This document shows, piece by piece, positions 8,530 to 53,929 of a stretch of 64,000 nucleotides of DNA. Source of the DNA: Owenia fusiformis (taxonomy: Eukaryota; Annelida; Polychaeta; Sabellida; Oweniidae); the NCBI GenBank assembly GCA_903813345.2, contig CAIIXF020000012.1, forward strand, positions 32,308,501-32,372,500, in the 5' to 3' direction. The position numbers and the translations under genes are program-made. A model generated the notes under the pieces. That model was not told the DNA's origin, ran no database searches, and was given only the letters and a program-made list of their open reading frames with translations. Positions within the stretch are counted from its first letter, which is position 1; each line of letters begins with the position of its first letter.

Positions 8530-8981
8530 GAAACTACAAACTGCGGATTGATATGGAAGATTGGGACGGTCATCGGTATTTCTCGGAATACGATAGTTTC
8601 ATGATCGATAACGAAGACGATCTCTATAGACTACACATTCGTGGTTACCATGGCAACGCAGGGGATTCCCTGACGCCATACTGGGATAACCATAACAACC
8701 AACCGTTTAGTACCAAAGATATGGACAACGATGAACGTTACTACGACAACTGTGCTGAGCATTACCATGGAGCTTGGTGGTTCAAAAGTTGTTTTAAATC
8801 ACATTTAAATGGGATATACTACCAAAAAGGTTCCCACAGTGACTTCTTTGTTAGAAACGGAATACAGTGGGATACAATACACCGCCATTCCTCGTTAAAA
8901 TATGTAGTGATGATGATAAAACCATACAAGGTCATACTCGACAGTGATTCTAATTTAGACAGTTCAATCAACGAAGTGTAA
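8530..8981 (+). CDS. Fibrinogen-related protein, terminal exon (second half of FReD domain)
   Basis: An acceptor (gtttttcag) at 8521-8529 opens an exon that reads in phase 1 to a stop at 8979-8981, about 150 residues. It holds the C-terminal half of a fibrinogen-like domain: YRLHIRGYHGNAGDS, the calcium-loop pattern FSTKDMDNDE, and the NCA...WWF..C pair that makes the last disulfide. Such domains are usually secreted and bind acetylated or other glycans (ficolin, angiopoietin and tenascin type). The N-terminal half must lie in upstream exons that I did not find in 1161-8529. The tail after the conserved ...MMIKP end is about 17 residues and unlike the family. Family call is firm; ligand and subfamily are unknown. 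Confidence 0.88.
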
Positions 8982-11919: not shown

Positions 11920-12151
11920 TAGTGTAATGACCCGAGGGCGCCCCAGTGGAATGACTAATACCTACAAGTGAGTGTAACAGGCCAGATAGAGAACTTGAGA
12001 GAAAGTGTGCTGAATTCAACGCCCCATGTGGGAATCGAACCTGGAATCCTTGGATCAAAAGACTGATGCTCTACCAACTGAGCTATAAAGGCTTAAGCCA
12101 CTTCAGTTGGGCCGTAGTAGCAACTTGTTATCACCAAGGGTCGTTACACTA
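11920..12151. mobile_element. Inverted-repeat element carrying a tRNA-like sequence
   Basis: Ends are inverted: tagtgtaatgaccc at 11920-11933 and gggtcgttacacta at 12138-12151 (one mismatch). Inside, on the minus strand, is a 73-nt tRNA-like segment (12020-12092). The left end recurs, with gagggcgcccca next to it, at about 54042-54068 near ARL6IP4, so this is a dispersed family. It looks like a short non-autonomous DNA element that captured, or was built around, a tRNA. Confidence 0.7.
12020..12092 (-). tRNA. tRNA-like sequence (Lys-type, probably a pseudo-tRNA)
   Basis: On the minus strand the segment starts gcctttatagctcagttggt, with good A-box and B-box (ggttcgattcc) sequences and a paired T arm. 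The seven-base anticodon loop reads cttttga, placing TTT (Lys) in the anticodon. The anticodon stem pairs poorly and the acceptor stem has mismatches, so a working tRNA is unlikely. Its place inside an inverted-repeat element also argues for a mobile relic. Confidence 0.5.
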
Positions 12152-12677: not shown

Positions 12678-12836
12678 TCAAAGTTTAGCACCAGGTTTTA
12701 GGTATTTCACATACTCAAATCTGGCAACTGCCCTTGTGTGGACCTCATCAGGACCGTCAGCTATTCGTAGAATCCTGGCCCAGCTGTACAGAGCTGCCAA
12801 GGGAAAGTCTTGGCACACACCAGCGCCCCCATATGC
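12678..12836 (-). CDS. ACAD10: ACAD10-like terminal exon T4 (ends -AKL)
   Basis: The acceptor (gtatggttccag) gives a phase-0 exon of 52 codons and a TGA at 12678-12680. It begins [20 protein letters not shown], carries the family motif [10 protein letters not shown], and ends PGAKL. It is closest to terminal exon T3 (shared GVCQD and -AKL). AKL is an accepted PTS1 variant. Copies of its acceptor and first ~40 bases continue as a ~106-bp array on the upstream side (to about 13270). Confidence 0.88.
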
Positions 12837-15800
12837 CTGGAACCATACATAACACATGAATTAAGAAATATAGAATTTTAGTTCAGAAATAAAACTTGAC
12901 AATAGGAAAGTCTTGGCATGCTCTAATCACCCCACAAGCCTGGAATCATACATGGATATGAAAATTAATTTAAAATATAAAACTTTAGCCAAGACAGAGA
13001 TTGGCCAGAGGAAAGTCTTGGCCTACTCAAAGTCCCTAATATGGGTTTGGAATCATACATTTATGTAAAAATGAATAAATAGTGTAGAATTTTTGCCCAA
13101 ACAGAGAGATTCATCTGAGGAGAGTCTTGACTTACTCAAACCATATGGTGTACCTGGAATCATACATGAATGTAACAAATGAATGGATTAATACATAATT
13201 GTAGGCCAGACATAGACATCTATAGACCAGAGTGAGAAACGTTGGCACACTACACTCTGGAATCATACATAGATACAAATATAACCAGTGAATTAAACTG
13301 TCACATTTTCAAAATATTTTGAGTTCTCATCATTCCATGCCATGCCTGTTTTAAAAAAAGTTCAATAGTTCTTATGTCAAACATATTTTCAGGTCATGCA
13401 ACATACTCCCAAGACATGCAGAAATGTTGCATTTTTAAGTTATGCAACATGTTTCTCAGTTATGCACTGTTTTCATCTTTTGTTTTCCATTCGCCAATAT
13501 ATCTTCTATTCTACAAACAGCATATTGTCAAATTATCATTTCAATTAGTCATGCAGCATGCTTTTCTGCTATCTGGCATGGTGTCCAACTATGTAGCATG
13601 CTTTTCAGTTTTGCACTTGTTTCTAAGCTATGCAATATGTTTTAGACTTGTGGAACATATTTTTATGCTATGCAACATGTTTCCTGATGTAATCTATTTT
13701 TCAGTTTTAAGTTTTCTTATTATACAACTTGTATTACACATTTTCAAATTAAACTAATGTTTTCCAGTTATGCAACATGTTCTCAAGCTATGCAGCATGT
13801 TTCAGTGATGCTGTTTTCAAACCATACTGCATGCTTTCTCATCATCTGGCATGTTTTCTACTATGCAACATGTTTCCCAGTTATGCAACATGATCTCGAG
13901 CTATGCAACATATTTTCCAGTTATGCAACATGTTTCCCAGTTATGCAATATGTTCTCGAGCTATGTGACATGTTTCCCAGTTATGCAACATGTTTTCTAG
14001 CTATGCAACGTGTTTCCCAGTTATGCAACATGTTCTTGAGCTATGCGACATGTTCTCCAGTTATGCAACATGTTCTTGAGCTATGCAGCTGCCCATTCTC
14101 AAGCTATGCAACATGTTTCCCAGTTATGCAACATGTTCTAGAGCTATGCAACATGTTCCCCAGTTATGCAACATGTTTTCTAGCTATGCAACATGTTTCC
14201 TAGATCTGAACTTTTTAGGATACAGTAGACATCATAATGCTATTGATTTCTAGTAGATTACTATTATTATGAAACAATGAAGCTACTTTCGACTGCAGTC
14301 CAGATTGCCCTTCAAACAAGTTTTCGAGATGACTTCAGAGCACTGTCTCGTCAATGGCTTGAATGCAACCTACTGTGCACTAAACATGAGGGAGAATATT
14401 TCTAAAACCTTATGGGACAATAGTTGCTACTATTATTACATGTACATTAAGTAATATCATGTACAAGTAGAAAGCGGAGAAGAAATTCATGTGATATACT
14501 CATAAATTGCCTACCATTCTGTTGTTTTTCTAATGAATAATGTGACATAAAAAGTGCCCCGCCTACCCAAAAGTCAAGTTACCATAGTAACCCTTATTTT
14601 TGACCAATCAAATAAGAGATGCTGATATTTTCAGAATCAATCAGAAAGTATTTTTTATACATTGTGTGAAAATTTCATGAGAAAATATCAAAAATCCTTG
14701 AAATGAGAGCGTTTTTCCGTGAACTTATTGAACGACCTGGTATATCTCTCTTTCTCAAATGGTATCCCTTCTAGTTCTCTTATTCTCCAAATCACTTACA
14801 CCGTGCTTCTCTCTTTTTAACTGTCAACAAACTCATTGTAACCCCATAGAGGTATTTTTAACTTAATTTGCATAATATTTATTTATTTGGATATATGCTT
14901 TTCATAAGAATGGCACTCTACATACACTTACATAATGTATACAATACTGTACAAAAAAGCTGCATCCAAGTTTATTTAAAATTATAGTAAAAAGATATAA
15001 TAAAATAACAAAAACTCCATAAAATCATGAAATATCTACATTATCAACAGTATAATTTTTTAAGGATAAAATAAATGAAATACAATAACAAAAAAAAACA
15101 GATATTAATAATTGAGCAATTAACAATGTATAACTTTCATAGTATTCATAATACTTATAAGCAAGACCGATTTTATCCTATTTTTTCTGTGAACTAGTGC
15201 GATTTCAGGATCACCATCATCGCAGGGTATCAATTCTAAAATAATGAGGTTTACAATTACTGCAACATACACCTCAACTCATTGGTGTCTCGGACATAGT
15301 ACTCATAATATGCAATTTAAAAATACATTTAATGTTCACATTTATTATGGAATGATGTATTTTTGCATTCTGCATGCATGCTCTAAGCAAGCATCAGGTG
15401 AAATGCTCTTATATTCATCAATTTTTCAGTTCTTATGACATCTTCCAATTTCAAGTAATCAGGGGGCCATTAACAGAAACTTCATGAAGTTAAGAATTCA
15501 TAAAACCCATTGTTCTCTAACTGTGACGTCATTATATCCATGGTTACAACAATTAATTTACGAATTCATAACTTTACTAAGTTTCTGTTAATGACCCCCA
15601 GTTTCACTTGTTATATGTCTTCAAACTAATAGAATTCTTTGTAGCACAGTAAAACCTGTCAGATTGACACCTCTCTGTAAAAGGGTTCCTTCTAATATGG
15701 AAATTTTTCAAAACAACTAAGTCCCATTGACTTACATGTTAAGTGACCCCCTCTGTAAGGAACACCAATCAACATGAACTCTTCAATATATGCAGATTTC

Positions 15801-18800
15801 TCAGTATTGTTAAAACTAAATATTTACAGTTTTAAAATCATCTGGGGATTTTCTGTTTTTCAGTCTCTCAAAACCTCATTTACGGAATGAGCTTATATGT
15901 TAGAGAAAAACATTAACTATATTTGAATGAATAATATGCCATACTTGAACTATAATAGGTTCTATTAGTAAATAATGAAGCTGATAAATGTTTGTTCAGT
16001 TGTTTCTTGTCATAACTAAATTTTGGCCTATTGTTTATTGTTATGACTAAAGTTTGGCCTATTGTTTTTTGTCATGACTAAAGTTTGGACTGATATTACT
16101 TCTCATGACTAAAGTTTGGACTGTTGTTACTTCTCATGACTAAAGTTTGGCCTACAGTTTCTTGTCATGACTTAAGTTTGTTCAGTTGTTTCTTGTCATG
16201 ACTAAAGTTTGGCCTGTTGTTTCTTGTATTGTCTGTAGAACTCAATCCTGGCAACCATTCTGCGGTGGACCTCATCGGGGCCATCTGCGATACGTAGGCA
16301 GCGGACTCCTGCATACATCGGTGCCAGTGGTGTATCCTGACATACCCCCATTCCTCCAAATGACTGGAAAACAAAAAATACTGGAACTGTATTTGCAAAA
16401 TTTACAACGACAAACCATCTGGCATCTGTTACAGATGCCGACTGCTGAACACTGTTACAGATGCCAAACACCAGCCACGAAACAGTGGCCACAAAAAAGT
16501 TGGAGACTAACAATATGTCACCACTTCTGGACAATATGACACTACTTCTGGTGGTGACATAGCAACAAATTGTTGTCACATACAATGGTACATTACAAAA
16601 ACATGGGTGGTGACCAAAGCTCACTCAGGTGTGAGCATACATGTATAATCCCTCCAACTTGGTCAAAATTGTACATTATTTGGGGCAGCCATTCCAGATT
16701 GTTGCCCCGTAATATCATTGATATTTGTTGATACCGGGGACCATTATGACTAATGACTCCTTACAAAAATAACAGAACTCTATAAATCATTCATACAACT
16801 AGGCTTTAAAAAGTACAACAACAACACAAAGGAGCACACTGATTTCGAACTCGCAACATCGTGTTCAGGCGCCCATATACCTACCTCGACAAATTCATAA
16901 AATCAATTCATAAAATTTTGTAATTGGGGAAGAAAATTAAGATTCAAACATAAATCACCTCCCACCTCATTATTGAGGACTTCTTGTCAAACTGATGGAC
17001 AGGGGGTGAACAGTACCCTGGAATAATCTACAAGATTGATTTCATATGTCTCCCACATATCTAATCTACCTTCTAGTTGAAAGCCCATGCTAATATAAAG
17101 GACATTTTTAAACTTCAATGGTTAATGGGGTTAAGATACAAAAACAACTAAGACAAAACTATTCATTACTTTGTGCATTACTTTGTTTATTTTTTATTAA
17201 TTTATTTATATACAATTTAGCAAAAATAAATTATATTTATCATAAGATCCTTAACAAATAATACTGTAGTCCATAATTACAATATCATAACAACAAAGAT
17301 AATTTTCCATTGAACTTGATCAATTTTTCTAGTTCATCATTTAAAAAATGGATGCCTTCAACTTAGTTCTGAATACCATACATACAACTTAATTCCTCAG
17401 TCAGCTATTTTTCTTTCTCGAAGTACTGCATGTTGCGATGACTTATATTTATCTAGAAACATTTGGCATATTTCTATTGATCCATAAATTGGTATCATGC
17501 TCATCCAAAATCACAGCTTTCATAAATTGCATATTTTCGGCTCTCATGTTGAGTAAATTTTATGTTACCAAAGCTCTCCATAAATATAAGGTCCATGGCT
17601 TGGTAATCATATTCATCTAGAATGACCTGGCCCGTAGCCAGGATTTGCCGAGGGGGGTTCACTATTTGAAAAATTTCAGGGGGAGTTTACTCGTGACAAT
17701 TTTGGTCCAAAAATGGCCAAAATCACTTAAAAGGTGCTCAGAATGGTGAAAGCTGCAAGATTTTGAAAGATTTTTTGTCCAGGGGGGTTCGCTCGAAACC
17801 ATCAAACCCCCCTGGCTACAGGCCTGATGACATTCCATAAATCTTTGAATTGGTATGGTACTCATCTAAAATCACAGCTTAGCTGTGGCATATTTTCTGC
17901 TCTCGTTAAATTTTGAGCAATTTAATGTTAGCGAAGCTTTTTGTTAATATATGTTCCATGGTTTGAATTTCAAATTCTTCTTGAATGATATTCCAATAAT
18001 CCTTAAACTGGTCTAGTCATTACATACCTCATCCAATTCCAAAATCATAGCTTAAATATTGCTATTTTCTGCTCTCGGATTGAGCAATTTTATGTGAGTA
18101 AAAGCCCTTCATAAATATATGATCAATGGATTGGTAATCATATTCATCTACATGTAGAATCACATTCAATTGATCCTTCAATTAGTATAATGCTCATCCG
18201 TAATTAAAGCTTAGAAATTGCATATTTTCTGCTCTCGTGTTGAGCAATTTTCCGTTTGTGAACCTCATCTGGGCCATCAGCTAAACGTAGCGTTCGCACC
18301 TTTGTGTAGAACTTTGCTAACACAACATCTGAGCTCACACCAGCACCTCCAAATGCCTTTAAAAATAAATTACGTCATCTTAATTTCTGTTTATTGTCAT
18401 TTCGATCAAGAGAGACTATATGGCAGCATGGGTGAAAACGTGTATAGTTTGTGATTTTCCAAAACTAAATTGAGCCTTGGAAAATGTTAATATCCATCAC
18501 AAATATAAAATCCAGAATTTTCTATATGCATCCAATTCTAAAGCTTGGAAATTGCATATTTCCTGCTTTCATATTGAGCGATTTTCCGAGCGTGGACTTC
18601 ATCGGGACCGTCAGCAATGCGTAGCGTTCGAACATTGGCGAACAGATGAGCCAATACAACATCTGAGTTGACACCCGCTCCGCCAAATGCCTTGAAAATA
18701 AAAACAAGACACAAGGTGATAAATATCGCACTTTGAATACCACCATGTAATTTACCCAGAATGCCCAAAGCCTAATCAGATACTGAAGCTAGTCTACTCT

Positions 18801-33800: not shown

Positions 33801-36800
33801 CCTGTAACATTGGTAGGCTTTGATATGCTCTCAGTTGCCAAACTTATGGAGGGGAGTGTAACTTCCATGTGACTTTCACACACAACTGGCACATTATCAA
33901 AGAATAAAGAAATTATAACTATGATAATAAAACAAGTCTTCATTTGAGACTTTTTGTATGTTTGTTATATTCCACTTTATTTGATTGCCAATTAGGGTGA
34001 TTTTCACAGATTTTAATTGCGGGTGACTTTTGTGAATATTTCCTCAAAATCTCAAAAGTGCCACACGTACCATCAAGAGCACGCTTATATACACCCTGCA
34101 ATATGGCGGCTTTTCTAAAGAACTGGAATACTAACTGGAAGCGCCACCTAGTGTCAGTTAAGTGGGGAAGGCCCATGTAATCGCAATATGTGTCCAGATA
34201 TTGCCTTGGAGTGGGTATGCCTAATTTCATCAAGATTTTGTCACTCATATCTGGATGGATGAAAATGTTCATGAATATGAAAATGTTCATGAATGTTCAT
34301 GAATATAACTGGGCAGCTAGGGGGTTAAGAGGCTTGGGGGTATGATTGAAAGTATGCCAAAATTGATGGTCAAAATACGTTGGATCATTTTGAAAATTAT
34401 TGTGATATTTTTTACAAATAAAATGCCAGGCATTCAAATGTATAACCCATTGCATAGATTTTGTACACTTTCAAACGAAGAAATTCAAATTTTCCAATAA
34501 CCTTGACCTTTAATTTTGGTATAGCCTCACACCCAAAACATTTAACCTTAGCAACATACCGGAAATAGCCCTTTTGTACACCCCCTGTGCGATAGCAGCT
34601 GTTCGGAAGAAATTGAACGCGATATAGAAATACCACGTCTTTAAAGGGATTGTAGGGATCCCCATGTGTTGACAGTATGTTGCTATGTATTCTTCTACAG
34701 TAGGAAAGCCTTGTGGTTTCAGTTCAACAGCCTGCTCTTCAACTTTGAGGAGAAAGTTTGTTATTTTGTGAATTACAATGTTGACTAAATATTTGTTGAT
34801 TTAATGACACAATAGATCTTTTTTGAGAAAAATCTCACACTATACAAAGTGAATGGAGAGAAACCATATGGATATATGGTCAAGGAAAAGCTGAATAAAA
34901 TCTTTTAAAGATGAATATATACTTTATCTGGCCAAATATTCTTCAAAATCATACAGTTTTCCAACATTTTGAGCACTTCTCAATTGATTTTGGGCCAGAA
35001 TTGTCTAACTTGAATTCAAATCGAACCTCTGGCATGGAATTTTTTCAAATATTTTAAGGACAAAAATACCTAAGATCATGTATCAGCAGTAACAATTATC
35101 AGTATGGGTTAAATAAACCTAGGAAATGTTTCTTGGCCAAATTCATTGATGTTATGAATGTGTATATTTGCATGTTTATGTATACTACGCAACAATAAGA
35201 CTTAATCATTTTAATTCAGCTATGATTTGGCATGACTATAATTAAACAGGTCTAAATGCATAACAAAAATGTTCTCAATCACAACCCAAAAAAAACATAT
35301 TTTGGGTAGTGTAAGTGTGAGTACACACTGCCCATAATAAATCTCTTTGGTGAGGTCTAAATGCCATAAATATCCTTCATTTAACTTATAAACCATTTCT
35401 GTTTTCCTATGTCATTAAAGCCAATATTTTATTCAAAACAAAGCATAGAAATATTTCCTGAATTATCATATAAAATGTATGCAATTGAAGTTTCATATAA
35501 TTCAGAACATCAAAATACACATATGCATAATGAATTTCATTTAAACAGTGTGAGCATATTTTGAATTCCATTTCCAAAACTGGAACATACAGGGTGTCAA
35601 AAAAGACTCTTTACTTTACAATACAAAGTCTGAAAAGTGTAAAGAGACTAAGAACACCATGTATATTTAATTCAATGAAAAAATAAATTGAAAATAGTTC
35701 GAACTTATTCATCCATCATGAAGAAATCAGGTTTGTTTGTTATATCCATTTTGTCACATAAATATACATCTAAATTCAAACAATACATGTTGCTACAGGG
35801 GCGGATCTGGGAACCAACAAGGGGGGGGGCCAAATTTTTTTGGGCCCCTAAAAGGCAAAAGTGGGCCCAAATTTTGAAATTTTGAGGCCCATTTTCTTCA
35901 AAATTTGGCCTGAATTTGAAAAATTAGGCCTTAAAAGGCCCAGTAATGACCAAAAAGGCCGACTTTTTGGGGCCTTAAGGCCTTTTTTTTTCTGGGCCCA
36001 CCCAAGGGGGGGGGCCCGGGCCCCCAATGATTATCATTTACCATATTATATTTACCATATTATATTCACCATACCATACTGTACTATATGAGTCTATGGT
36101 ACCGTATGGTACTCTTGTGGATGAACCAGCATTAAGTTTACTTTAAGCATTTTGGTAACACACAAAATATATTTACACCAACCAAATCCTTTATTTTAAA
36201 ATCAATTCAATCTAAAATCAATAAATAATTCATCAAAAATAACCTAAAATTTAAACAAAAATTATATTTCCGCAATAAGCAATGACTAATTTTTACTTAC
36301 CTGGGAATGCCCCAAAAGATTGTGGTGAATAATACGCCATGCAGTTTGTAGCGAGGTCAGTTAACGGATCTCCTATAGTGGAGAGCTCCCAATCAAGGAC
36401 GGCAACGACCTTGGGTTCAGTTGGGTGAAATATCAGATTGTCAAGCCTGGAAGAAGAAATAGTACCATGGGTACTGGGTTCACATGGTGAAGTGCTGAAA
36501 ACCAGATTTTTTCGCAATAAAAGTGACTGTCAATTTAGAATAATGGAGCTTTTAAGACACCACTTTGTGACAATTGAACTTAAATGAGTCGGCATAATTT
36601 TTTTTATCAAGATGAGGGGGGCTAGAGGGAGATGAGAGAGGGTTCTACCTGAAATCTCCATGGGCAATGGTGATCATTTCATCCTTTGGCATGTTTTCAG
36701 GTATCCATTTCATTAGATTATCCATGGCAGGTATTTCATGGGTCTTACTTGCTTCATACTGCTTGGCCCATCTCTTGAAGTTACGGGCAACATAGCCACC

Positions 36801-39800
36801 TTAAACAGACAAACAATATTAACTCAGTGCTTCTGCCACAAAAAGCTTTACTTCTTTCATGACCTAACAGCAGTCTGATAGCCAGCTTTTTACACGGGCG
36901 TTAGTTTTGAAAATTTCAGGGGTTCAAGTCTGAACCTCAAAAATTGTTAAAAAGTGGCTGATTTTGAAAGAATTTGTGTCCAGGGGGTCCTGGAATTTTA
37001 TGACAAAATTGATGTGGCACCCGCCTGCCTACCCAAATGCTTGCCTGCACATCTAGCAGCACATGACGACGACAATGAAGCACTCATTTGTAATAAAAAG
37101 TGCAATAAAATATCATAAAATACCTTTTTTGCCATAGTCATCAAGTCCTGCCTTGCTGATGTCAACTTTGTGAATTTTAGCTAACACCTCGCACATGGCA
37201 TTATAGATGGCGGTGCGCTCTTTTGGTTCCATGTTTGGCAAAAGTGGGTCTTTGAATATACGTCCTGGCATATGCTCCATTACGTAGAATGGCGTCCCGA
37301 TCACACTGAAATGTGGAAATAGTTTTGTTTATGGGGCATATCAAGAAAAAAGGTTTTTAGGAAACCCTAAGTAATATTGAAATATCTAATTAATGTGAAT
37401 CTCTCAAAATAATGAGCATTACGTATCTTATTTCAACTAACCTACTATCTTCACAAAGACCAATCATGGTAGGAACAGGGACCCCTTGTGAACCTAGGGC
37501 ATCCATTATCTTGTACTCCCTCTCTACAGCATGGGCAGAGGGCAGTAGCTTACCTGGCTGTAATGTACAAGACAGAACAGATACATTATTAGCATGGTCA
37601 GGCCTGTAAGGGGGAGGGGGGAGGGAGTTCAAGCGAACCCCCTCGGACTAAAATTCTTTCAATATCATACAGTTTTTCACCATTCTGAGAACTTTTCGAG
37701 TGATTTTGGGTCAAAACTGTCAAATTTGAACCCCCTGAAATTTTTTAAAAACTGAACCAGCCTTCGCAAAAGCTGGCTGTGGGCTTCAGGTGTAAAGCTC
37801 ACAGCTTCCTGAATGCCAATGGCAATCACTTTTCAATCCTAGCTATGAATATTGAAAAAGATGTTGCTTAATGGGGAAAGGATTTAGGCAAATACATTAC
37901 AAATAAATTGTGGTAATTATGTTTTTGACTTTGGTTTTTAAACCTGATGGCTCTTTAAAAGTTACTTACAGGTTTTTTACGTAGCACCATTCTCTTGCCT
38001 CCATAGCCAACAAAGTATGTGGGATTAGATTGGCCATGTTTATAACATCTAATGTTGGCTTCGTCTGAAAGGAAGATGATCTAATCTACTGAGCAACTCA
38101 AGCAACTCAAAGCCCTGGCCAAAAAGTTCATAAAAATCAATCACCATTTGTAGCACTTTTTAAGTCATTTTGGGCCAAAATTATCAAATTCAAACCCCCC
38201 CTGGAATTTAAAATAAAAACCTTGAAAAAAACTGGTTACTTGCCCGCAAATTATAAGCAAAACACACTGAAAGCTGTCTAATCTGAACAGCCCTGAGACT
38301 GGCCAAAAGTGTTTGGATTCAGGTAAGTGTTCTCATATCAAGGATTTGGACATTGAAGTCTCTGGAAGAGGTTTCTTGTAATTATATTTCAGATTGGCCG
38401 CTCACTCCCTAAAAAGTAGGAGTATCTTGGGAAAAATTTCTGATACACACCTGTGAAATTTGTTGTGTTGTATTTGGCTCCTAGGACCTGCCTAAGATAT
38501 TCTTTCAGTTTATCTACTTCTAATTCTAGTCTCTTTGGTACAGCGATTGTCCCATCTACATAGCCCCTCAATGGGAAACCTAGGATCGCTTCCAATTCCC
38601 CAAGTGCTTGTTCTGGTCCAGACACCTACAATGTTAACACGTTAATCACCTTAATATATGATTGACAACCATAATAAGGCTTTGACCTACAAAATGTCAC
38701 CTTTTGCCATTTGTTACAGACACCAACTACACAATCCCAAACACCAATCGCTGAACACCATCCAAAAAAAAGTTGTAGACAGTGGTGACAATTTTTATTT
38801 ACCTACATTTAATTATTACCGAAACCATTTCCATTTGGAGTTATTTCTATATATTGTTGCTACAGTGCACATTATTTATCACTCTATAGATTAATTTTGT
38901 TTTGAAGTTTTCCCATACCTTAATGGTTTGAATTCCCATTTTCTGCGCTGGTATCAGATTAGATCCTATATCATCAAGGAAGACAGACTCTTCAGCTTTG
39001 ACTCCTAGTTTTTCTAAACACATCTCATAGATCCTTGGGTCTGGTTTACGCATACCCACTTTACATGATTCTATCACCTACAACATACAGAGCCACCTTT
39101 AGGAATACATATAAGGTAAAGTATGTATGAGGCAGAGGGCAGAGAAATTACTCATGGAAATGGCAATGTAAAGAATCAATAATATAAATAAAAATGTAAT
39201 TCACATAAATAATAATTGATTATTCCTTTAATTGCCTTATAAACTTAAAGAAAGACACGCAAAGGCATGATATATATAAATCCTTTAGCTGTATATCCGA
39301 GGCTGAGACTGTTAGGTTACTATTCTTTTTCATTCCCTTAATGCCATTATTATTTGATGTTGATTATTAAAGGCAGATTTATAGTTGCAAACATGGCGCA
39401 CATACACTGCAGGAGCTTTAGTTTGAGTAGACAAGTTGATCTACAAAAAAATATTTAACCTGTTGTTCTATAAGGGGTCTTATATTACATTAGATCCTTG
39501 TCTTATAAGGGGTCTTTTTTCATGACTCACCACATCAAATTTTTCAGGTTGAACACCGTCAGGAAGAGCTGAAGCTCCAGATTTATCCACAATCCAGTTA
39601 TTTGTAATTATTGCCGTTTTTATGCCCTCTGCCCTTATGCAGTCAAAAGCATCAAGCATACTTTTATAAGGCGTTGAGATATCTGGGAACTTCATAAACC
39701 CCATCATCATTGGTTGTACATCAACTTGTCTACCCAACTGCCAAAAAAATATTGAAATTGAATGTATGAATGTAAAAATGGTTTTAAGGTGGGTTTTTAA

Positions 39801-41857
39801 TGGTCAACTATGGATTTCTTCATTCAGAATTTGATACTTATCAATTTTAAGTACTAAAACTTGATGTTTGTGTGTCCAGATATGCATCGTATAGCATGTT
39901 CTTTAATGCGCCATTCAAAGGTTTGCGTGAGACTGACAGCTCAATTTTTATTTTTTCAAATTCCCAACCCATATTGGCAAATTCCCGTACCCTGGGAGCA
40001 ACCTAATCAATCAATTCCCCATCCTATGAGCAATAATAGCGGATCAAATAAAGCCAAAATTCCAATTACTCGGAATAAGCATTTCAAAAGTAGCTACTCC
40101 TGGAATGTCCCTTAGACAATACTACTTCACAAATTCCCATCTGGGGCCTAGGAGGGTCTCAAACAAAACTTTGATTGGCCCATAACAAATGATTGATTGA
40201 AGAATATCCATAATTAAACCACACCCTTGTATCATTCACTCACAACATTAAACATATCTTTATCTACAGGGCAGTGGCTCTTAGTGTCATTGATCTTCCA
40301 ATTGTTGGTCAAAAGTGCTGTTTTTACACCTTCAGCATTGATACAATTTATAGCATCAACCATAGCTGGGATTGGTGCTCCTCTCTCTAGACCTGCGAAT
40401 TTGTCTATAATACCACGCATATTCACAGTAACTTGCCGACCAAGCTGAAATATTTGTCAAATATTATATCCCTTTATTTATTTATATACAGTAAAACCTG
40501 TAGAAGTGGAACACCCTGTAAGTTGAACACTTTTCAGTCCCATGATCAACTGTCTTCAACGTAAGTAAAACATTTCCTTAGTGGAACACTTTTTATCAGA
40601 GGTACCAACGGTGTTCCACTTCTGAAGGTTTTACTGTAATTATAAATGCCGCAGAATTTACCAATCATAAAGGTCATACAAATAAAATTTAGAGTTTTTT
40701 TGTTGAAATACAATCTCTATAAAACATTTATCATTTCTATACATTAAAATAATTCATGGACTTTATATTAATTTATATAAACAATGATTCCTGTTACATA
40801 GGTGGGGATAAACTGCTTTACAAAATGCTTTCTTATTTCTTGTTTTTCCACTTTGTTCTGCAATACAAACATTAGACGTCCTCAAGGCATTAACTAGACT
40901 ACCCATGTACAGCAAAACCTATATCTGAACACCTCTCCAAACTGAACACCTCTCAATGTGAACCCTTTTTAGTCCCATTTCACATCTTCCATCTGAGATT
41001 ACCATGATAACGACACTTTTTGGATTAGAAAGGTTTTACTGTATATTTTTGGTATATTACCTGTTTGGAGACCTCTTCACTGAAAGGCTTCCCAAAATCT
41101 TCAGCTGTTAGTTCTCCCCGATCGAGTGCTGCCCAAGACCCTGTCTCTCCACTAGCAACAATTGTCTTCAGTATGATTCCCTGTGGTAAACCATTCTGGG
41201 CCTCAAAATCTACAATGGAGTTTCTAATTTATCAAAAAATTTTATAAAATCTATTTCTAAATGTTCTAAACTTCAACATACCTAGCGTTGTTATACATAG
41301 AAATTCTTCTAAACCAAGTCTAGAGAGTGAAATACTGGACGGAATGCTATTTTGTGATCATGTTGTGTTGTGACAAAATAACATGGAGCCCCTTGACAGT
41401 ACTGTATCACATGCACTAGGACAAATAGGGTTTTCCCGATAAAAAATCAGCAGACCCTCCACTCTCCGTCCCAAGAACTTCAGTACATAAAGAGTGATAA
41501 AGAGGGATTTTCTTTTCATTCTCTCCTTTACACTTAATATTAATTCATCAACATGAATGCACTAATTTATTCATCTTTTTTATTCACACTTTTCAAGACT
41601 TTTTGGACAGCCCTCGTAAATATAAATCATTAAATTACATGTACACATGCATTACACCTATTTACAAATGTCAAATGAACTCACCAAAGAACACTTTGAA
41701 GGGAGGGGGGAGAATGACTCCTCCCATGTCAAATATGACAGCTTTGGTGCTCTTATCACGGCGTTGACTTGTGGTTGCCATAGCAACATTTTGGGTATGC
41801 TTATCTAGATGATGACGCAAAGTCTTTGTGCGGAGAACTTGACTGGCACGCATCATG
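12678..41857 (-). CDS. ACAD10: ACAD10-like multidomain acyl-CoA dehydrogenase gene, whole locus
   Basis: Twenty-one coding exons in one transcript path join with consistent phases: 41857-41685, 41209-41061, 40444-40244 or 39737-39531, 39077-38919, 38625-38451, 38064-37970, 37557-37442, 37305-37124, 36799-36649, 36446-36301, one of three kinase-end exons, 29599-29423, 28957-28785, 26100-25963, 25549-25440, 25022-24904, 23484-23291, 22506-22369, 20399-20256, 19992-19915, and one of four terminal exons. Coding length with the first copies is 3153 bases including stop (1050 residues). Domain order is HAD-like, APH-type kinase, acyl-CoA dehydrogenase, as in ACAD10; ACAD11 lacks the HAD part. Known role of the family: catabolism of 4-hydroxy fatty acids, in which the kinase phosphorylates the 4-hydroxyacyl-CoA and the dehydrogenase fold removes the phosphate. 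An acceptor (tattttcag) directly before the first ATG implies at least one further 5' exon upstream of 41857. Confidence 0.93.
12837..13275. repeat. Array of ~106-bp units copying the T4 acceptor and exon start
   Basis: Four degenerate copies of gggaaagtcttggcacacac ... cctggaaccatacat follow the real exon edge, near 12904-12955, 13010-13065, 13117-13170 and 13225-13270. Each carries the splice-acceptor region and the first ~40 bases of exon T4. Copies are diverged (for example catatggtgtacctgg), so they are older than the 23.5-kb array. Confidence 0.8.
13375..14205. repeat. ~20-bp minisatellite in ACAD10-like intron
   Basis: Tandem copies of agttatgcaacatgtttccc alternating with a gagctatgcaacatgttct form. 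It is regular from about 13750 to 14205 and degenerate before that. The open frames seen through it on the + strand translate to repetitive peptides and are artefacts of the repeat. Confidence 0.93.
14206..15464. other. Intron of ACAD10-like gene, no feature seen
   Basis: AT-rich sequence between terminal exons T3 and T4. I see no exon, no clear repeat unit and no long ORF. Confidence 0.5.
15465..15600. mobile_element. Small inverted-repeat element (MITE-like)
   Basis: The ends ggggccattaacagaaactt and aagtttctgttaatgacccc are inverted copies (~20 bp, near-perfect) about 135 bp apart. The interior has no coding capacity and is itself partly palindromic (gaattcataa on both sides). Confidence 0.75.
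15990..16235. repeat. ~35-bp array copying the T3 stop-codon end
   Basis: About seven copies of tcatgactaaagtttggcct plus gttgtttcttg. Read on the minus strand, the last unit is the real 3' end of exon T3, encoding ...KKQQAKL and its TAG; the other units lie downstream of the stop. The array therefore starts inside the coding sequence and runs on into the 3' untranslated region. Confidence 0.85.
16202..16363 (-). CDS. ACAD10: ACAD10-like terminal exon T3 (ends -AKL)
   Basis: The acceptor (ttttgttttccag) gives a phase-0 exon of 53 codons and a TAG at 16202-16204. It begins [20 protein letters not shown], carries [10 protein letters not shown] and ends QQAKL, a PTS1-type tail. Same intron phase and core motif as T1, T2 and T4, but with its own stop, so it must be an alternative last exon rather than an added one. 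Confidence 0.88.
16400..16625. mobile_element. Member of the GTCACCAC repeat family (minus orientation)
   Basis: Contains gatgccaaacacc, aaaaaagttggagac and catatgtcaccacttctgg-type segments shared in order with copies near 31294-31395, 38690-38790, 60893-61015, 62080-62165 and 63246-63395. The short inverted ends are of the gtcaccac / gtggtgac type. A non-autonomous, dispersed element. Confidence 0.65.
17485..18130. repeat. Degenerate duplicates of the T1/T2 3' end and 3' flank
   Basis: Fragments near 17500-17600, 17865-17945 and 18040-18115 repeat the sequence that ends exons T1 and T2 (in plus orientation: ttagaaattgcatattttct, gctctcgtgttgagcaattt). None has an intact frame or acceptor. 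They are remnants of further terminal-exon copies or of tandem duplication of the 3' edge. Part of 17630-17830 is a separate gtagccagg-type dispersed repeat. Confidence 0.65.
17630..17830. mobile_element. Dispersed repeat with cccgtagccagg / cctggctacaggcc ends
   Basis: The ends ggcccgtagccagga and cctggctacaggcctg are inverted, and the interior (aaaatcacttaaaaggtgct...) has no ORF. Related pieces occur near 6130-6320, 25768-25912, 36880-36990, 37600-37790, 38100-38250 and 55795-56005. A short non-autonomous element common in introns of this locus. Confidence 0.7.
18204..18356 (-). CDS. ACAD10: ACAD10-like terminal exon T2 (ends -SKL)
   Basis: The acceptor (tttttaaag) gives a phase-0 exon of 50 codons with TAA at 18204-18206. 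It begins [20 protein letters not shown], has [10 protein letters not shown] and ends YAISKL. By my own hand comparison it is about 82% identical to T1 (9 of 50 residues differ). SKL is the canonical PTS1. Confidence 0.88.
   Translation of the reverse strand, partial: AFGGAGVSSDVVLAKFYTKVRTLRLADGPDEVHKRKIAQHESRKYAISKL
18390..18395 (-). terminator. Candidate polyadenylation signal AATAAA for T1 isoform
   Basis: AATAAA on the minus strand lies about 145 bases after the T1 stop and before the T2 acceptor. This would let a transcript ending in T1 be cleaved before T2 is spliced. Hexamers of this kind are common in AT-rich DNA, so support is modest. Confidence 0.35.
18538..18690 (-). CDS. ACAD10: ACAD10-like terminal exon T1 (ends -SKL)
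   Basis: First of the four terminal exons in transcript order. The acceptor (ttattttcaag) opens a phase-0 exon of 50 codons and TAG at 18538-18540. It begins [20 protein letters not shown], has [10 protein letters not shown] and ends YAISKL. This segment forms the last helices of the acyl-CoA dehydrogenase fold. In most acyl-CoA dehydrogenases the matching ...YEG... region is near the active site; ACAD10/11 proteins have ADGPDEVH there. Confidence 0.9.
   Translation of the reverse strand, partial: AFGGAGVNSDVVLAHLFANVRTLRIADGPDEVHARKIAQYESRKYAISKL
19640..19773. mobile_element. Small inverted-repeat element with TA ends
   Basis: The ends tagggagtttaagcttaca and tgtaagcttaaactcccta are perfect inverted copies about 134 bp apart. 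The outermost TA on each side is consistent with a Tc1/mariner-type target site. No coding capacity. Confidence 0.8.
19915..20399 (-). CDS. ACAD10: ACAD10-like exons encoding the C-terminal helical domain (two exons)
   Basis: Exon 20399-20256 (48 codons, phase 0) starts [20 protein letters not shown] and ends HMMDTVGNK; exon 19992-19915 (26 codons) runs [10 protein letters not shown] to ARVIDRAIQ. Both belong to the C-terminal four-helix part of acyl-CoA dehydrogenases, where the R-x-x-F-G-K-P segment helps bind FAD of the neighbouring subunit. The next exon is one of T1-T4, all in phase 0. Confidence 0.92.
20583..21287 (+). CDS. Fibrinogen-related protein, single-exon FReD nested in ACAD10-like intron
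   Basis: One open frame of 234 codons holds a whole fibrinogen-like domain: first Cys and [13 protein letters not shown] near residues 35-50, [16 protein letters not shown], the [10 protein letters not shown] block, [13 protein letters not shown], and a calcium loop [10 protein letters not shown]. The usual NCA...C..NLNG end is replaced by GDGCSGAV...YCISWYF, so the binding pocket is altered. The 452-base exon at 8530 covers only half of such a domain, so this copy has lost at least one intron, which suggests retroposition. The start is uncertain: the first ~25 residues are weakly hydrophobic, and acceptor-like sites (gttttccag, tttgttccag) at about 20627 and 20647 could instead mark an exon. 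It lies antiparallel inside the intron between 22369 and 20399. Confidence 0.82.
   Translation: MIVASGIRIYMYMFSSIVFVPEAPNNAPFTGAEDCFRLPDGIHTITPKNGKQFLARCEAGWLILAHRFDGSVDFNVEWILYKHGFGFLKGGHFKGMDNIVAVLQQKKFKARFELTTWENETRYAEYTTFDINDEKDKYRLNIDGYNGTAGDSMRASNGDQFSTNDSDNDGPYWFGDGCSGAVASIFGEYPNGPKCPNAHYCISWYFWPTDLPGVDSNSLYSFKEVKLKIQPIPM
22369..22506 (-). CDS. ACAD10: ACAD10-like exon, dehydrogenase core
   Basis: Phase-0 exon of 46 codons starting [20 protein letters not shown] with [11 protein letters not shown] following. The G-x-G-R-I-H-x-C-x-R segment is typical of the acyl-CoA dehydrogenase C-terminal domain and of ACAD10/11 in particular. The donor is gtaggt. Confidence 0.93.
22575..22745. mobile_element. 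Dispersed ~190-bp repeat (cagtgatctcc family)
   Basis: It begins ccagtgatctcctcagcatt and includes gcaagtgggtgcagcacc. Copies occur at about 43660-43795 (opposite orientation) and 50065-50270. The unit has no ORF of note and is probably a small non-autonomous element. Confidence 0.75.
23291..23484 (-). CDS. ACAD10: ACAD10-like exon, dehydrogenase beta domain
   Basis: Acceptor (tgtattctag) in phase 1, 194 bases. Translation begins [17 protein letters not shown] and continues [30 protein letters not shown]. This is the middle beta domain of the dehydrogenase. Directly upstream of its acceptor lies a 106-bp tandem array made of this acceptor and the first ~92 bases of this exon. Confidence 0.94.
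23485..24650. repeat. 106-bp array of acceptor plus 5' exon copies
   Basis: Eleven units. The gcacctaga landmark falls at 23481, 23587, 23693, 23799, 23905, 24011, 24117, 24222, 24328, 24434, 24540 and 24646. On the minus strand each unit is the splice acceptor tctatgtattctag followed by the first ~92 bases of the adjoining coding exon, with no donor. A unit is 35 codons plus one base, so successive units do not share a frame. Copies are over 95% alike by eye, so the array is young or homogenised. Confidence 0.95.
24904..25022 (-). CDS. ACAD10: ACAD10-like exon, FAD/substrate-binding segment
   Basis: 119 bases, phase 2 in and phase 1 out. It encodes [20 protein letters not shown] and later [10 protein letters not shown]. 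The M-T-E-P-x-V-A-S-S-D-A run is the FAD-contacting motif of ACAD10/11-type dehydrogenases, and the GxKWW(I/T)SG motif is shared across the superfamily. Its acceptor and first ~30 bases are copied in the 50-bp array next door. Confidence 0.95.
25023..25290. repeat. 50-bp array of acceptor plus exon start
   Basis: Six acctgaaatc landmarks at exact 50-base steps (25021, 25071, 25121, 25171, 25221, 25271). Each unit holds, on the minus strand, the acceptor gatttcag and the first 30 bases of the exon that encodes [10 protein letters not shown]. Units are nearly identical. Confidence 0.95.
25440..25549 (-). CDS. ACAD10: ACAD10-like exon, dehydrogenase N-terminal domain end
   Basis: 110 bases, phase 0 in and phase 2 out; donor gtacat. 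It encodes [20 protein letters not shown] followed by [26 protein letters not shown] is a hallmark stretch of ACAD10/11. Confidence 0.92.
25963..26100 (-). CDS. ACAD10: ACAD10-like exon, dehydrogenase N-terminal domain
   Basis: 46 codons, phase 0 both ends. It begins [20 protein letters not shown] and continues [18 protein letters not shown]. It is strongly ACAD10/11-like. The donor is gtaact. Confidence 0.93.
26289..26435. mobile_element. Palindromic hairpin element (ggttcaggatattggg family)
   Basis: Arms run from tatcctatatgaggttcagg to the complementary cctgaaccgactataggata, centred on gagggccgcaggtcccgagg. Near-identical hairpins lie at 27775-27905 and 28335-28465. No coding capacity. 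All three sit beside copies of the larger foldback element in this intron. Confidence 0.8.
26436..27237. mobile_element. Large foldback element, ~400-bp inverted arms
   Basis: An ~802-bp inverted repeat with almost no spacer, centred near 26849 on gggataaatatttatccc. Both arms contain, in mirror order, the segments tggtcatctggttcacattg, ttttgttttcttggcc, cgctcgcatat and cgtccaagtatggg. The arms are similar but not identical, so the sequence is not a simple assembly mirror. A single arm is present again at 27915-28333. Confidence 0.85.
27618..27768. mobile_element. Palindromic hairpin element (ggttttggatacag family)
   Basis: The arms ggtttggatacaggaaatat and the complementary ccctgtatccaaaacc enclose a GC-rich centre of the ccctcggg/cccttcgg type. 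Related to the hairpin at 3741-3878. Confidence 0.75.
27915..28333. mobile_element. Single-arm copy of the foldback element, flanked by hairpins
   Basis: Matches the right arm of 26436-27237 from cccatacttggacgtgttac to ccaagattggtatgggataa. Hairpin elements of the ggttcaggatattggg family flank it at 27775-27905 and 28335-28465, in the same way as at 26289-26435, so the hairpin and the arm may move together. Confidence 0.8.
28785..28957 (-). CDS. ACAD10: ACAD10-like exon, start of dehydrogenase domain
   Basis: 173 bases, phase 1 in and phase 0 out; donor gtgaga. It encodes [20 protein letters not shown] then KHVAPAEEP and VHPLVEELK, the first helices of the acyl-CoA dehydrogenase domain. It contains an internal Met at its second codon; a start here would give a stand-alone dehydrogenase, but I see no evidence that it is used. 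Confidence 0.92.
29016..29173. mobile_element. Pogo/Tigger-like MITE, TA-flanked
   Basis: It begins cagtaaaacctgtctaagtg after TA and ends in agatttcactg before TA. The interior consists of tggaacacc / ggtgttccac motifs. One of many copies in the window (see 40489-40636). Confidence 0.75.
29423..29599 (-). CDS. ACAD10: ACAD10-like linker exon with Asn-rich tract
   Basis: 177 bases, phase 1 at both ends; acceptor gtgttctag, donor gtatgt. It starts [20 protein letters not shown], a stretch conserved in ACAD10 after the kinase domain, then passes into a run of about 20 residues rich in Asn (tracts of NNNN and SNYNNS) encoded by a ttg/ctattg microsatellite. The tract lies in the interdomain linker, where length change should be tolerated. 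Confidence 0.9.
31433..32524 (-). pseudogene. Decayed mariner-type transposon
   Basis: Ends cgaggggtgatccaaaagtc and its inverse lie at 31433 and 32524, each flanked by TA. The inverted similarity extends about 190 bp inward, through ccctgccacccggaacggta. On the minus strand, the translation around 32000-32060 and 31750-31860 recalls the C-terminal part of mariner-family transposases (a YS..M..C.FLPF pattern, then WFEKC...G.Y). Frames are broken and the N-terminal half is absent. Confidence 0.7.
32698..32750 (-). pseudogene. Fragment of a fourth kinase-end exon
   Basis: The sequence encodes [13 protein letters not shown] followed by the same donor (gtaggtg) as exon J3, but the first two thirds of the exon and the acceptor are missing. 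It appears to be a partial tandem duplicate of the 3' part of J3, about 80 bases downstream in transcript order. Confidence 0.8.
32779..32961 (-). CDS. ACAD10: ACAD10-like alternative kinase-end exon J3
   Basis: 183 bases, phase 1 at both ends; acceptor gggttacag, donor gtaggt. It encodes [20 protein letters not shown] and then [19 protein letters not shown]. It is homologous in position and pattern to J1 and J2 (EY...Y...MG, FR..AI.QGV.KRA..G) but the most diverged, with [10 protein letters not shown] where J1 has [10 protein letters not shown]. Confidence 0.88.
34071..34250 (-). CDS. ACAD10: ACAD10-like alternative kinase-end exon J2
   Basis: 180 bases, phase 1 both ends; acceptor catccatccag (weak pyrimidine tract), donor gtacgt. 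It encodes [20 protein letters not shown], then [20 protein letters not shown]. The core ILQGVYKR is the ACAD10 consensus. Confidence 0.88.
34560..34742 (-). CDS. ACAD10: ACAD10-like alternative kinase-end exon J1
   Basis: 183 bases, phase 1 both ends; acceptor tctcctcaaag, donor gtatgt. It encodes [20 protein letters not shown], then [20 protein letters not shown]. It has the closest overall pattern to the vertebrate ACAD10 exon at this position. It is first of the three copies in transcript order. Confidence 0.9.
35810..36030. repeat. ggggcggatct / gggcccccaa repeat element
   Basis: It begins caggggcggatctgggaacc, runs through G-runs and repeated gggcccaaatttt / ttttggggcc motifs, and ends with ggggggggcccgggccccca. 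The ends are GC-rich within AT-rich DNA. No gene. It is a dispersed-repeat type element in the intron between 36301 and 34742. Confidence 0.6.
36301..37557 (-). CDS. ACAD10: ACAD10-like exons encoding the APH-type kinase core (four exons)
   Basis: Exons 37557-37442, 37305-37124, 36799-36649 and 36446-36301. In order they encode [20 protein letters not shown] and [33 protein letters not shown]; the Brenner-type catalytic loop split over an intron as HGDFR|LDN (Asp and Asn of the HxDxxxxN motif present); and [17 protein letters not shown], which carries the metal-binding Asp. All key residues of an aminoglycoside-phosphotransferase fold are there, so an active kinase is expected. Phases 0-2-1-2-1 join without error. 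Confidence 0.94.
37970..38625 (-). CDS. ACAD10: ACAD10-like exons joining HAD and kinase domains (two exons)
   Basis: Exon 38625-38451 (phase 0 in, 1 out) encodes [20 protein letters not shown] and the linker [10 protein letters not shown]; exon 38064-37970 encodes [20 protein letters not shown] and [16 protein letters not shown] is the glycine-rich start of the ACAD10/11 kinase, and V-L-R-K-K-P holds the ATP-contacting Lys. Confidence 0.93.
38919..39077 (-). CDS. ACAD10: ACAD10-like exon, HAD motifs III and IV
   Basis: 53 codons, phase 0 both ends. It encodes [20 protein letters not shown], then [10 protein letters not shown]. The K of GMRKPDP is HAD motif III and the DD of FLDD is motif IV, so the late part of the HAD active site is intact. 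Confidence 0.94.
39531..39737 (-). CDS. ACAD10: ACAD10-like alternative HAD exon C2
   Basis: 69 codons, phase 0 both ends; acceptor ttttttggcag, donor gtgagt. It begins [20 protein letters not shown], has [10 protein letters not shown] (HAD motif II T-N-N) and ends PEKFDV. Homologous to C1 by start (LGRQV), middle (DA.(D/N)CI.AEG.KTA) and end (F(D/N)V), so the two are alternatives for the same protein segment. Confidence 0.88.
40244..40444 (-). CDS. ACAD10: ACAD10-like alternative HAD exon C1
   Basis: 67 codons, phase 0 both ends; acceptor aatatttcag, donor gtgagt. It begins [20 protein letters not shown], has [10 protein letters not shown] (HAD motif II) and ends DKDMFNV. In transcript order it precedes C2. 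Including both would repeat HAD motif II and disrupt the fold, so one-or-the-other use is inferred. Confidence 0.88.
40489..40636. mobile_element. Pogo/Tigger-like MITE, TA-flanked, complete
   Basis: 148 bp from cagtaaaacctgtagaagtg to aggttttactg, with TA on both sides. Sub-terminal gtggaacacc / ggtgttccac inverted motifs. The CAGT start, TA duplication and lack of ORF fit a non-autonomous pogo/Tigger relative. Other copies or fragments: 15650-15780, 25660-25760, 29016-29173, 29860-30195, 38270-38345, 40909-41040, 59805-59995 and 61295-61590. Confidence 0.82.
41061..41209 (-). CDS. ACAD10: ACAD10-like exon, HAD cap region
   Basis: 149 bases, phase 1 in and 0 out; acceptor ccattgtag, donor gtaata. 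It encodes [20 protein letters not shown], then [20 protein letters not shown]. It corresponds to the helical cap part of the ACAD10 HAD domain. Confidence 0.9.
41685..41857 (-). CDS. ACAD10: ACAD10-like first coding exon with basic leader and HAD motif I
   Basis: Start at 41854-41856 (Met-Met). The acceptor tattttcag immediately precedes it, so the 5' untranslated region begins in another exon. The first ~37 residues are basic and nearly free of acids ([20 protein letters not shown]), consistent with a mitochondrial leader. The HAD motif I follows as [14 protein letters not shown] with the nucleophile Asp at residue 43; the second motif Asp is replaced by Gly, as in vertebrate ACAD10. Donor gtgagt, phase 1. 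Confidence 0.88.
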
Positions 41858-53800: not shown

Positions 53801-53929
53801 CTTTCCCTTGAATAAGACCTTGATCTCCTATGATCCCTTGACCTAGATCTACGATCTCTTGATCTCGACCTATGATCTCTTGACTTACGATCCCTAGATC
53901 TTGATCTGGATCGTCCACCCATTTTGTAT
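50874..53929 (-). CDS. ARL6IP4: ARL6IP4 (SR-rich nuclear protein, SRp25-like)
   Basis: Four exons with matching phases: 53929-52559 (ATG at 53920-53922), 52032-51755, 51395-51214 and 50930-50874 (TAA at 50874-50876), giving 626 residues. Exon 1 is an RS-rich region ([20 protein letters not shown] and similar) ending in poly-Lys. Exon 2 has a Ser run, EEERRRKKK, and Lys-rich stretches. Exon 3 carries the conserved tail [20 protein letters not shown] then [20 protein letters not shown]; exon 4 ends [14 protein letters not shown]. This tail is diagnostic of ARL6IP4, a nuclear-speckle protein linked to splicing. The protein is longer than vertebrate forms because of the RS region. An acceptor just before the ATG (tgatttcag) implies a non-coding first exon nearer 54000-54600. 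Confidence 0.93.
52033..52500. repeat. ~32-bp array copying the ARL6IP4 exon-2 acceptor
   Basis: Degenerate copies of ggccctgaaagagttaaaca (plus ttaattatcatct). On the minus strand the unit contains tttaactctttcag and the first bases of exon 2 (ggccag), so the acceptor is repeated about 12 times across intron 1. Confidence 0.82.

Follow-up and report, generated by a model that had tools for sequence, protein, structure and literature searches.

Insect Dscam carries several arrays of homologous exons within one gene, and MTHFD1L is a metabolic enzyme. Choice among several exon clusters in one gene is known mostly from adhesion, muscle and channel proteins (in part from PMC2257972 and PMC5740500), and excerpts of both papers report the sizes of the Dscam arrays. 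In arthropod Mhc, several clusters of alternative exons give many combinations (480 in Drosophila) and replace a gene family (PMC2257972), while human MTHFD1L has been reported with three clusters of mutually exclusive exons (PMC5740500). Proposals and surveys in the literature trace mutually exclusive exons and competing structures to tandem exon duplication (PMC6071210; PMC9741552).

The chemistry by which ACAD10 and ACAD11 act on 4-hydroxy fatty acids was worked out only in 2024-2025 (PMC12440821; PMC11342911). Mammals have a peroxisomal ACAD11 and a mitochondrial ACAD10 (PMC12440821). The HAD domain of ACAD10 has an incomplete DxD motif and negligible phosphatase activity, and it restrains the kinase (PMC11342911). 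A term search of these two papers gave no passage on exon choice, and PMC7227031 mentions ACAD10 a single time, in connection with an exon skip that forms part of a tumour signature. Among the papers listed on ACAD10, acyl-CoA dehydrogenases or metabolic enzymes with exon duplication or splicing, none was seen to describe such exon sets in ACAD10/11.

Here we analyse a window of 64,000 nt, the whole stretch of Owenia fusiformis DNA under study, in which an earlier reading of the letters had proposed an ACAD10-like gene with three sets of alternative exons. The best overall explanation, to which we assign a probability of about 0.78, is that the window holds a single ACAD10-type gene with three duplicated exon sets, that one exon of each set would be chosen and that the products would be peroxisomal; the use of the exons is judged from constraint and anatomy.

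Gene architecture

The gene is intact on the minus strand, with its ATG at 41856 and its farthest stop at 12678. It comprises 27 exons at 21 positions, 18 of them single-copy and 3 multi-copy (C with 2 exons, J with 3 and T with 4). Exon borders were placed manually and then checked, with their phases, by script. The features are as follows.

41685-41856, minus strand: E1, first coding exon found (ATG ATG), with the HAD motif I nucleophile D43 and an Arg/Lys-rich N-terminus
41061-41209, minus strand: E2, constitutive HAD exon
40244-40444, minus strand: C1, alternative HAD exon, phase 0-0, 67 codons, motif II TNN
39531-39737, minus strand: C2, alternative HAD exon, phase 0-0, 69 codons, motif II TNN
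36301-39077, minus strand: E4-E10 as a block, constitutive, end of HAD and kinase through catalytic D465/N470
38919-39077, 38451-38625, 37970-38064 and 37442-37557, minus strand: E4-E7, constitutive
37124-37305, 36649-36799 and 36301-36446, minus strand: E8-E10, constitutive
34560-34742, minus strand: J1, alternative kinase-end exon, phase 1-1
34071-34250, minus strand: J2, alternative kinase-end exon, phase 1-1
32779-32961, minus strand: J3, alternative kinase-end exon, phase 1-1
19915-29599, minus strand: E12-E20 as a block, constitutive, Asn-rich linker and dehydrogenase up to the catalytic-base exon
29423-29599, 28785-28957, 25963-26100, 25440-25549 and 24904-25022, minus strand: E12-E16, constitutive
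23291-23484, 22369-22506, 20256-20399 and 19915-19992, minus strand: E17-E20, constitutive
18538-18690, minus strand: T4, alternative last exon, catalytic Asp, C-terminus ISKL-stop (TAG)
18204-18356, minus strand: T3, alternative last exon, catalytic Asp, C-terminus ISKL-stop (TAA)
16202-16363, minus strand: T2, alternative last exon, catalytic Asp D1027, C-terminus QAKL-stop (TAG)
12678-12836, minus strand: T1, alternative last exon, catalytic Asp, C-terminus GAKL-stop (TGA)

All nine exons of the three proposed sets were found in the phases first given for them (C 0-0, J 1-1, T 0-stop). Their borders, claimed to be GT-AG, proved so throughout the gene, with GT at all 23 donors and AG at all 26 acceptors. 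The figure of up to 24 isoforms likewise agrees with the anatomy, since all 24 combinations of one exon per set are open and in frame, contain no internal stop and encode 1049-1055 aa. No second full copy of any other exon was found in the 64-kb window.

Along the protein, Pfam families occur in the order PF00702 (HAD), PF01636 (APH kinase), PF02771, PF02770 and PF00441 (among 8 families listed). TIGR02247 (epoxide-hydrolase-type HAD) matches over its full length with 197.0 bits when C1 is used and 205.0 when C2 is used, against a cut-off of 125.4. The domain order HAD, APH-type kinase and acyl-CoA dehydrogenase in one polypeptide is the ACAD10 architecture, and the assignment of the gene as ACAD10-like is borne out by this order and the TIGR02247 match.

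Two borders leave room for variation. J2 has a further in-phase acceptor at 34220, 30 nt inside the exon, so its 5' border is a choice. A strong acceptor-like site (41857-41875, score 9.8) sits one nucleotide ahead of the E1 start codon, so E1 may not be the first exon and the gene could have a further 5' exon that supplies a different N-terminus or targeting signal. ACAD10 is directed to mitochondria by an N-terminal signal; the N-terminus encoded here is basic.

The copies are separated by introns of 506 nt (C), 309 and 1109 nt (J) and 181, 1840 and 3365 nt (T). It might be asked whether, instead of one alternatively spliced gene, the locus holds a number of partial genes or overlapping transcription units that share out the copies: the T exons, with these introns, span 6 kb, and the frame of T2 stays open for 261 nt upstream of the exon. 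The repeats are, however, single exons at a matching place and phase in one gene, and we regard separate units as hardly credible.

Several other elements were noted in the window. Imperfect 15-bp repeats at 29454-29511, within constitutive E12, add an Asn-rich stretch to the kinase-dehydrogenase linker; mammalian ACAD10 is cleaved in this linker region (PMC11342911). The E13-E14 intron holds, at 26260-28480, long inverted and direct repeats that by eye resemble mobile elements. An uninterrupted ORF for a fibrinogen C-terminal domain (PF00147) lies inside an intron of the gene on the opposite strand (20583-21287, plus strand) and another at 8553-8981 (plus strand); both are possibly intronless fibrinogen-related genes or retrocopies. 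At 51046-54039 (minus strand) lie an RS-rich ORF and, after it, one that encodes an SR-25 domain (PF10500); we take the two to be perhaps one ARL6IP4-like splicing-associated gene, the joining of the ORFs being putative. A segment at 12010-12095 looks tRNA-like by eye; ARAGORN found no tRNA in the window.

A single gene in the genome

The genome (498.3 Mb, 525 contigs) was searched with the whole protein, for which 38 of 41 rows fell in this locus and the other three had E values of 0.006, 0.04 and 0.4. With the dehydrogenase domain of ACAD11 as query, 19 of 22 rows fell here, and the remainder had E values of 0.05, 0.06 and 0.45. Within the limits set by assembly gaps, these two protein searches thus found no second ACAD10/11 gene. 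A PF02771 search returned 14 places and missed even this gene, which is why the genome-wide absence is taken from the two protein searches only.

Age of the copies and selective constraint

Protein identity is 48% between C1 and C2, 37-47% among the J exons, 82% between T3 and T4 and 52-65% in the other T pairs. Across copy pairs, pS is 0.57-0.92, near saturation, and pN is 0.11-0.48; pN is below pS in all ten pairs (bootstrap P <= 0.003). The ratio dN/dS is finite in five of the ten, at 0.25 for C1/C2, 0.14 for J1/J2 (which rests on an unreliable dS of 3.9), 0.31 for T1/T3, 0.29 for T1/T4 and 0.11 for T3/T4; the other five are dS-saturated and no ratio is claimed for them. The original prediction had named a dN/dS near 1 or frame breaks as grounds for its rejection, and the five finite between-copy values of 0.11-0.31 give no such grounds. 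In the flanking introns, 150 nt on each side, none of 20 comparisons exceeded the best of 100 shuffles, with one tie (T2/T4 downstream).

Neutral evolution was simulated for eight of the ten pairs with substitutions only and no indels, using d = 2.0 where dS was saturated. At d >= 1.0, none of 2000 simulated copies was stop-free and as similar as observed, and at d = 0.5 the fraction that was both ranged from 0 to 0.053. All nine copies are intact, correctly phased, old and under purifying selection; we call them old because synonymous sites are near saturation and the introns retain no similarity.

The fit of the copies to their protein families was assessed with HMMs built from bacterial rows only, drawn from the best 80 of at least 572 confirmed bacterial relatives. 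The T profile used 80 loci (60 distinct rows). Of the 60 loci that matched the kinase, 56 went into the J profile (55 distinct). T1, T2, T3 and T4 scored 78.7, 80.0, 78.4 and 74.2 bits, as compared with 76.4 for human and 88.1 for mouse ACAD11, while J1, J2 and J3 scored 53.7, 44.3 and 42.1 bits, as compared with 59.7 for mouse ACAD11 and 63.9 for 3dxp. In all seven J and T cases the real exon scored above the best of 200 neutral mutants (d = 0.3) derived from that copy itself. Among the 19 T columns conserved at >=90% in the 60 bacterial rows, T1-T4 keep 18, 19, 18 and 19; among the 11 such J columns in 55 rows, J1-J3 keep 9, 9 and 8. PF00441 reaches 131.7-137.3 bits with each of the four T exons and 93.4 without T.

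Trees of the exon segments (41-54 columns), which took the first 25 of 60 (T) and the first 25 of 55 (J) bacterial rows, place J1 on the shortest J branch and J2 and J3 on long ones, with long-branch warnings. They do not date the duplications.

Partial duplicates at the locus

Besides the complete exons, the locus contains partial duplicates.

23387-24655: array of the E17 start and acceptor, 12 units of 106 bp, 95% matches
24993-25287: array of the E16 acceptor and start, about 6 units of 50 bp, 97% matches
12905-13214, minus strand: partial copies, now decayed, that cover the acceptor and first part of T1, three matches scoring 79, 75 and 62 (shuffled maximum 48)
17445-18150, minus strand: partial copies, now decayed, that cover the 3' end of T3 and the sequence after it, scoring 65 (shuffled maximum 43)

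Each unit of the E17 array holds the acceptor and the first 32-35 codons or so. Only the last unit continues into the rest of the exon, and this is where the actual E17 starts; splicing would have to single it out among many near-identical acceptors. A fourth match to the T1 piece, with a score of 42 (below the shuffled maximum of 48), was excluded. The T3 score of 65 compares the T3 exon with non-overlapping downstream sequence; in the decayed T3 copies the peroxisomal signal is lost, and one has a premature stop. T4 and T3 are spaced by 334 nt, and the decayed T3 pieces follow at similar steps of 332, 361 and about 160 nt. The repeats and the stepped decayed pieces indicate that local tandem duplication keeps producing copies here. 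Incomplete copies decay, and complete alternatives persist. The decayed T1 and T3 pieces serve as an internal comparison for the fate of unselected copies, and their presence beside the kept ones displays the raw process behind the exon sets.

A locus that makes useless duplicates (12 E17 starts, about 6 E16 starts, the T1 and T3 pieces), together with the short branch of J1 and the long ones of J2 and J3, could suggest that only one copy per set is used and that the others are relics of tandem duplication whose decay is still to come. We consider this very improbable. Frame, splice sites, family columns and peroxisomal signals have all been kept despite near-saturated synonymous sites, and the neutral simulations fail to reproduce the kept copies.

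Active-site residues and the position of the variable segments

Residues were compared with the ACAD11 of PDB 8v3u/8v3v, which we assume to be the mouse protein because of the residue numbering used in PMC12440821. The chain index in these entries is the residue number minus 1, an offset confirmed by the mutated sites in both. Identity to this protein is 51% in the kinase (145 of 287 aligned residues) and 57% in the dehydrogenase (227 of 396). The ACAD11 catalytic base D753 corresponds to D1027, which lies within the T exon and is kept in all four, and the T copies differ on both sides of the catalytic-Asp motif. The substrate-phosphate residues R626, H634 and R637 correspond to R900, H908 and R911 in constitutive E18, and the kinase residues D220 and N225 to D465 and N470 in constitutive E9 and E10.

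The J exon encodes the final part of the kinase C lobe, as the original prediction had it in placing the variable kinase part at the end of the domain. The variable HAD part had been placed at motif II, and motif II is indeed TNN in both C1 and C2, its residues being, as placed with the sEH numbering, T153 and N154. In motif I the first Asp is kept (D43) and G45 replaces the second, which makes phosphatase activity of the HAD domain doubtful.

Given the restraint exerted by the HAD domain of ACAD10 and the positions of the segments, the choice of C, J and T could tune restraint, kinase and elimination, respectively. An effect on substrate is a guess, as the catalytic residues of the kinase and the phosphate-binding residues of the dehydrogenase sit in constitutive exons. 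The extra exons may thus be genuine alternatives whose variable parts alter regulation, assembly or stability instead of substrate choice, for example HAD-kinase restraint or the contacts of the tetramer or the kinase dimer. The restraint of the kinase by the ACAD10 HAD domain (PMC11342911), the retention of D43 with G45 for the second Asp and the constitutive substrate-phosphate residues are all in keeping with such a role. Against it, each T exon brings its own catalytic base with the surrounding residues, and the copies differ on both sides of the motif. We lean against a purely regulatory role and take it as a serious contender nonetheless.

Peroxisomal signals on all C-termini

The canonical type 1 peroxisomal signal (PTS1) has the consensus [SAC][KRH][LM]. 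T1-T4 end in AKL, AKL, SKL and SKL, that is, in a PTS1 in four of four exons. By composition, a PTS1-like tripeptide has p = 0.0023, and four would arise by chance with about 3e-11, or 1e-8 with T3 and T4 counted as one. Exon choice would leave the organelle unchanged and the enzyme varied, because all four T exons end in a PTS1. Judged from its predicted signals, this one gene joins the domains of ACAD10 with an ACAD11-type address.

Splicing choice within the sets

The T exons are mutually exclusive because each ends the frame; as had been claimed, each carries its own stop (TGA, TAG, TAA and TAG in T1-T4). The C and J sets each consist of adjacent homologous exons, similar in length and alike in phase, the anatomy of mutually exclusive clusters, and mutual exclusion within both sets is likely. 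Phase alone proves no exclusion here, since skipping, doubling and tripling stay open: in all seven combinations tried, in which C or J was skipped or 2-3 copies were included, the frame was kept.

The C and J exons might then be ordinary cassette exons that can be included together as internally repeated segments, with only T exclusive. This would suit the preserved frame of every double and triple inclusion tried, the introns between the copies (309 and 1109 nt in J, 506 nt in C), which are too long for steric exclusion, and the failure of four tests to find a docking/selector pattern. Yet each copy replaces the same stretch of a compact domain, C1 or C2 alone gives a full-length TIGR02247 match, and a doubled segment would presumably break the HAD or kinase fold. 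Joint inclusion is, in our judgement, improbable, and we retain a choice of one C and one J exon.

Docking/selector pairing for C and J gave no signal in four tests of low power on one genome, in which 22-59 of 100 shuffles were as good. The Dscam-like choice of the original prediction therefore finds no support here in its mechanistic sense.

One C exon shows a candidate structure of another kind.

39423-39446, minus strand: intron arm complementary to the first 24 nt of C2 (39714-39737), 24 nt, 92%

With z 8.0, this pairing ranks first among 52 exon/flank tests run on the 26 exons other than E1. The fold of the C2 region has z -4.08, better than 100 of 100 shuffles, and the 81-nt surroundings of the arm match only themselves in the genome. 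The corresponding test of C1 showed no hairpin (fold z -0.93, stability matched by 20 of 100 shuffles), so the hairpin is no general property of the C set. It may loop out C2 and its acceptor and so favour C1 by default; the complementarity is possibly a functionless inverted duplicate. In the other exon/flank tests, E16 had z 6.6, T3 6.0, T2 4.0 and the remainder <= 2.5. The E16 pairing was set aside as a product of its own tandem array, and no conclusion is built on the weaker downstream pairings of T3 and T2. None of the J exons stands out in this test (z -1.2 to 0.7); the list of inverted repeats places 20 in the J region.

With a small PWM, two alternative splice sites score below every constitutive site: the acceptor of J1, at -0.1 (59th percentile among intronic AGs), and the donor of C1, at 1.9 (69th percentile). 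The remaining alternative sites lie within the constitutive range or, for the T4 acceptor, above it. Within 1200 nt after the stops, candidate poly(A) signals occur as AATAAA at +143 for T4 (before T3) and +163 for T2, as ATTAAA at +278 or AATAAA at +998 for T3, and as TATAAA at +268 or AATAAA at +894 for T1. The two low-scoring splice sites, the missing docking signal, the distance of AATAAA from T3 and T1 (0.9-1.0 kb) and the simplicity of the null models weigh against the reading proposed below.

A model of exon choice

We propose that local tandem exon duplication occurred at three places of a single ACAD10-type gene, one inside each domain. A transcript would take one C and one J exon by mutually exclusive choice and end in one T as an alternative last exon. 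The products would be 4-hydroxyacyl-CoA kinase/dehydrogenases, each of them competent for peroxisomal import. They would vary in three places: a portion of the HAD domain, the last stretch of the kinase C lobe and the base-bearing segment of the dehydrogenase. Exon choice would tune activity or substrate range within one compartment, with splicing doing part of what two genes do in mammals, and C2 may be kept out of default splicing by the hairpin between its first 24 nt and the following intron.

A more ambitious form of the model would be a combinatorial enzyme, with independent choice at the three sites, up to 24 peroxisomal isoforms with different restraint, kinase and elimination replacing the mammalian gene family, an address held by selection as the active-site segment varies, and a hairpin that keeps one HAD exon off by default. 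Taken as a whole, this is speculative and rather doubtful. New beyond the original prediction are the four PTS1 signals, the catalytic Asp in T, the apparently single gene, the decayed partial copies and the C2 hairpin.

In this lipid-catabolic enzyme, exon choice appears to touch each of the three domains. Provided that the isoforms are made, they would offer a natural set of matched exchanges, in a single background, for the HAD segment, the end of the kinase and the dehydrogenase segment with the base. The control of substrate range and of HAD restraint would then be directly testable, as would the question of whether splicing replaces the ACAD10/ACAD11 pair.

Comparison with known systems

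The gene resembles mammalian ACAD10 and ACAD11 in its kinase and dehydrogenase, its catalytic Asp and its phosphate-binding Arg and His; it has the HAD domain of ACAD10 and the peroxisomal signal of ACAD11. Two features mark ACAD11, the lack of a HAD domain and a C-terminal PTS1, and only the second is found here. Mammals have two genes, one mitochondrial and one peroxisomal (PMC12440821), whereas here there is one gene with three exon sets and a PTS1 on every C-terminus.

Human MTHFD1L is alike in having three clusters of mutually exclusive exons in one gene (PMC5740500). It is a different enzyme, and the excerpt on human multi-cluster genes mentions neither terminal sets nor shared targeting signals. 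Exon choice of this kind had been called unusual for a lipid-catabolic enzyme; this needs a caveat because multi-cluster choice in a metabolic enzyme has a precedent in MTHFD1L (PMC5740500). Human tandem duplicated exon substitutions similarly keep functional residues, differ conservatively and are mostly ancient, but they are enriched for brain and skeletal muscle structure terms, and the summary of that work contains no ACAD10/11 case (PMC9741552).

Insect Dscam differs in having dozens of copies, as compared with 2-4 per set here, in being an adhesion receptor and in its docking/selector pairing, a pairing that our four tests did not find here. Arthropod Mhc shares the several exon clusters in one gene, the many combinations and the replacement of a gene family, but encodes a muscle motor, and some of its alternative exons are confirmed by ESTs (PMC2257972), whereas those described here are known from sequence. 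It differs also in that one set here consists of alternative last exons with their own stops. In architecture the gene is of the ACAD10 and not the ACAD11 kind, and by analogy its three-set exon layout would act like that of Mhc, with splicing in the place of a gene family.
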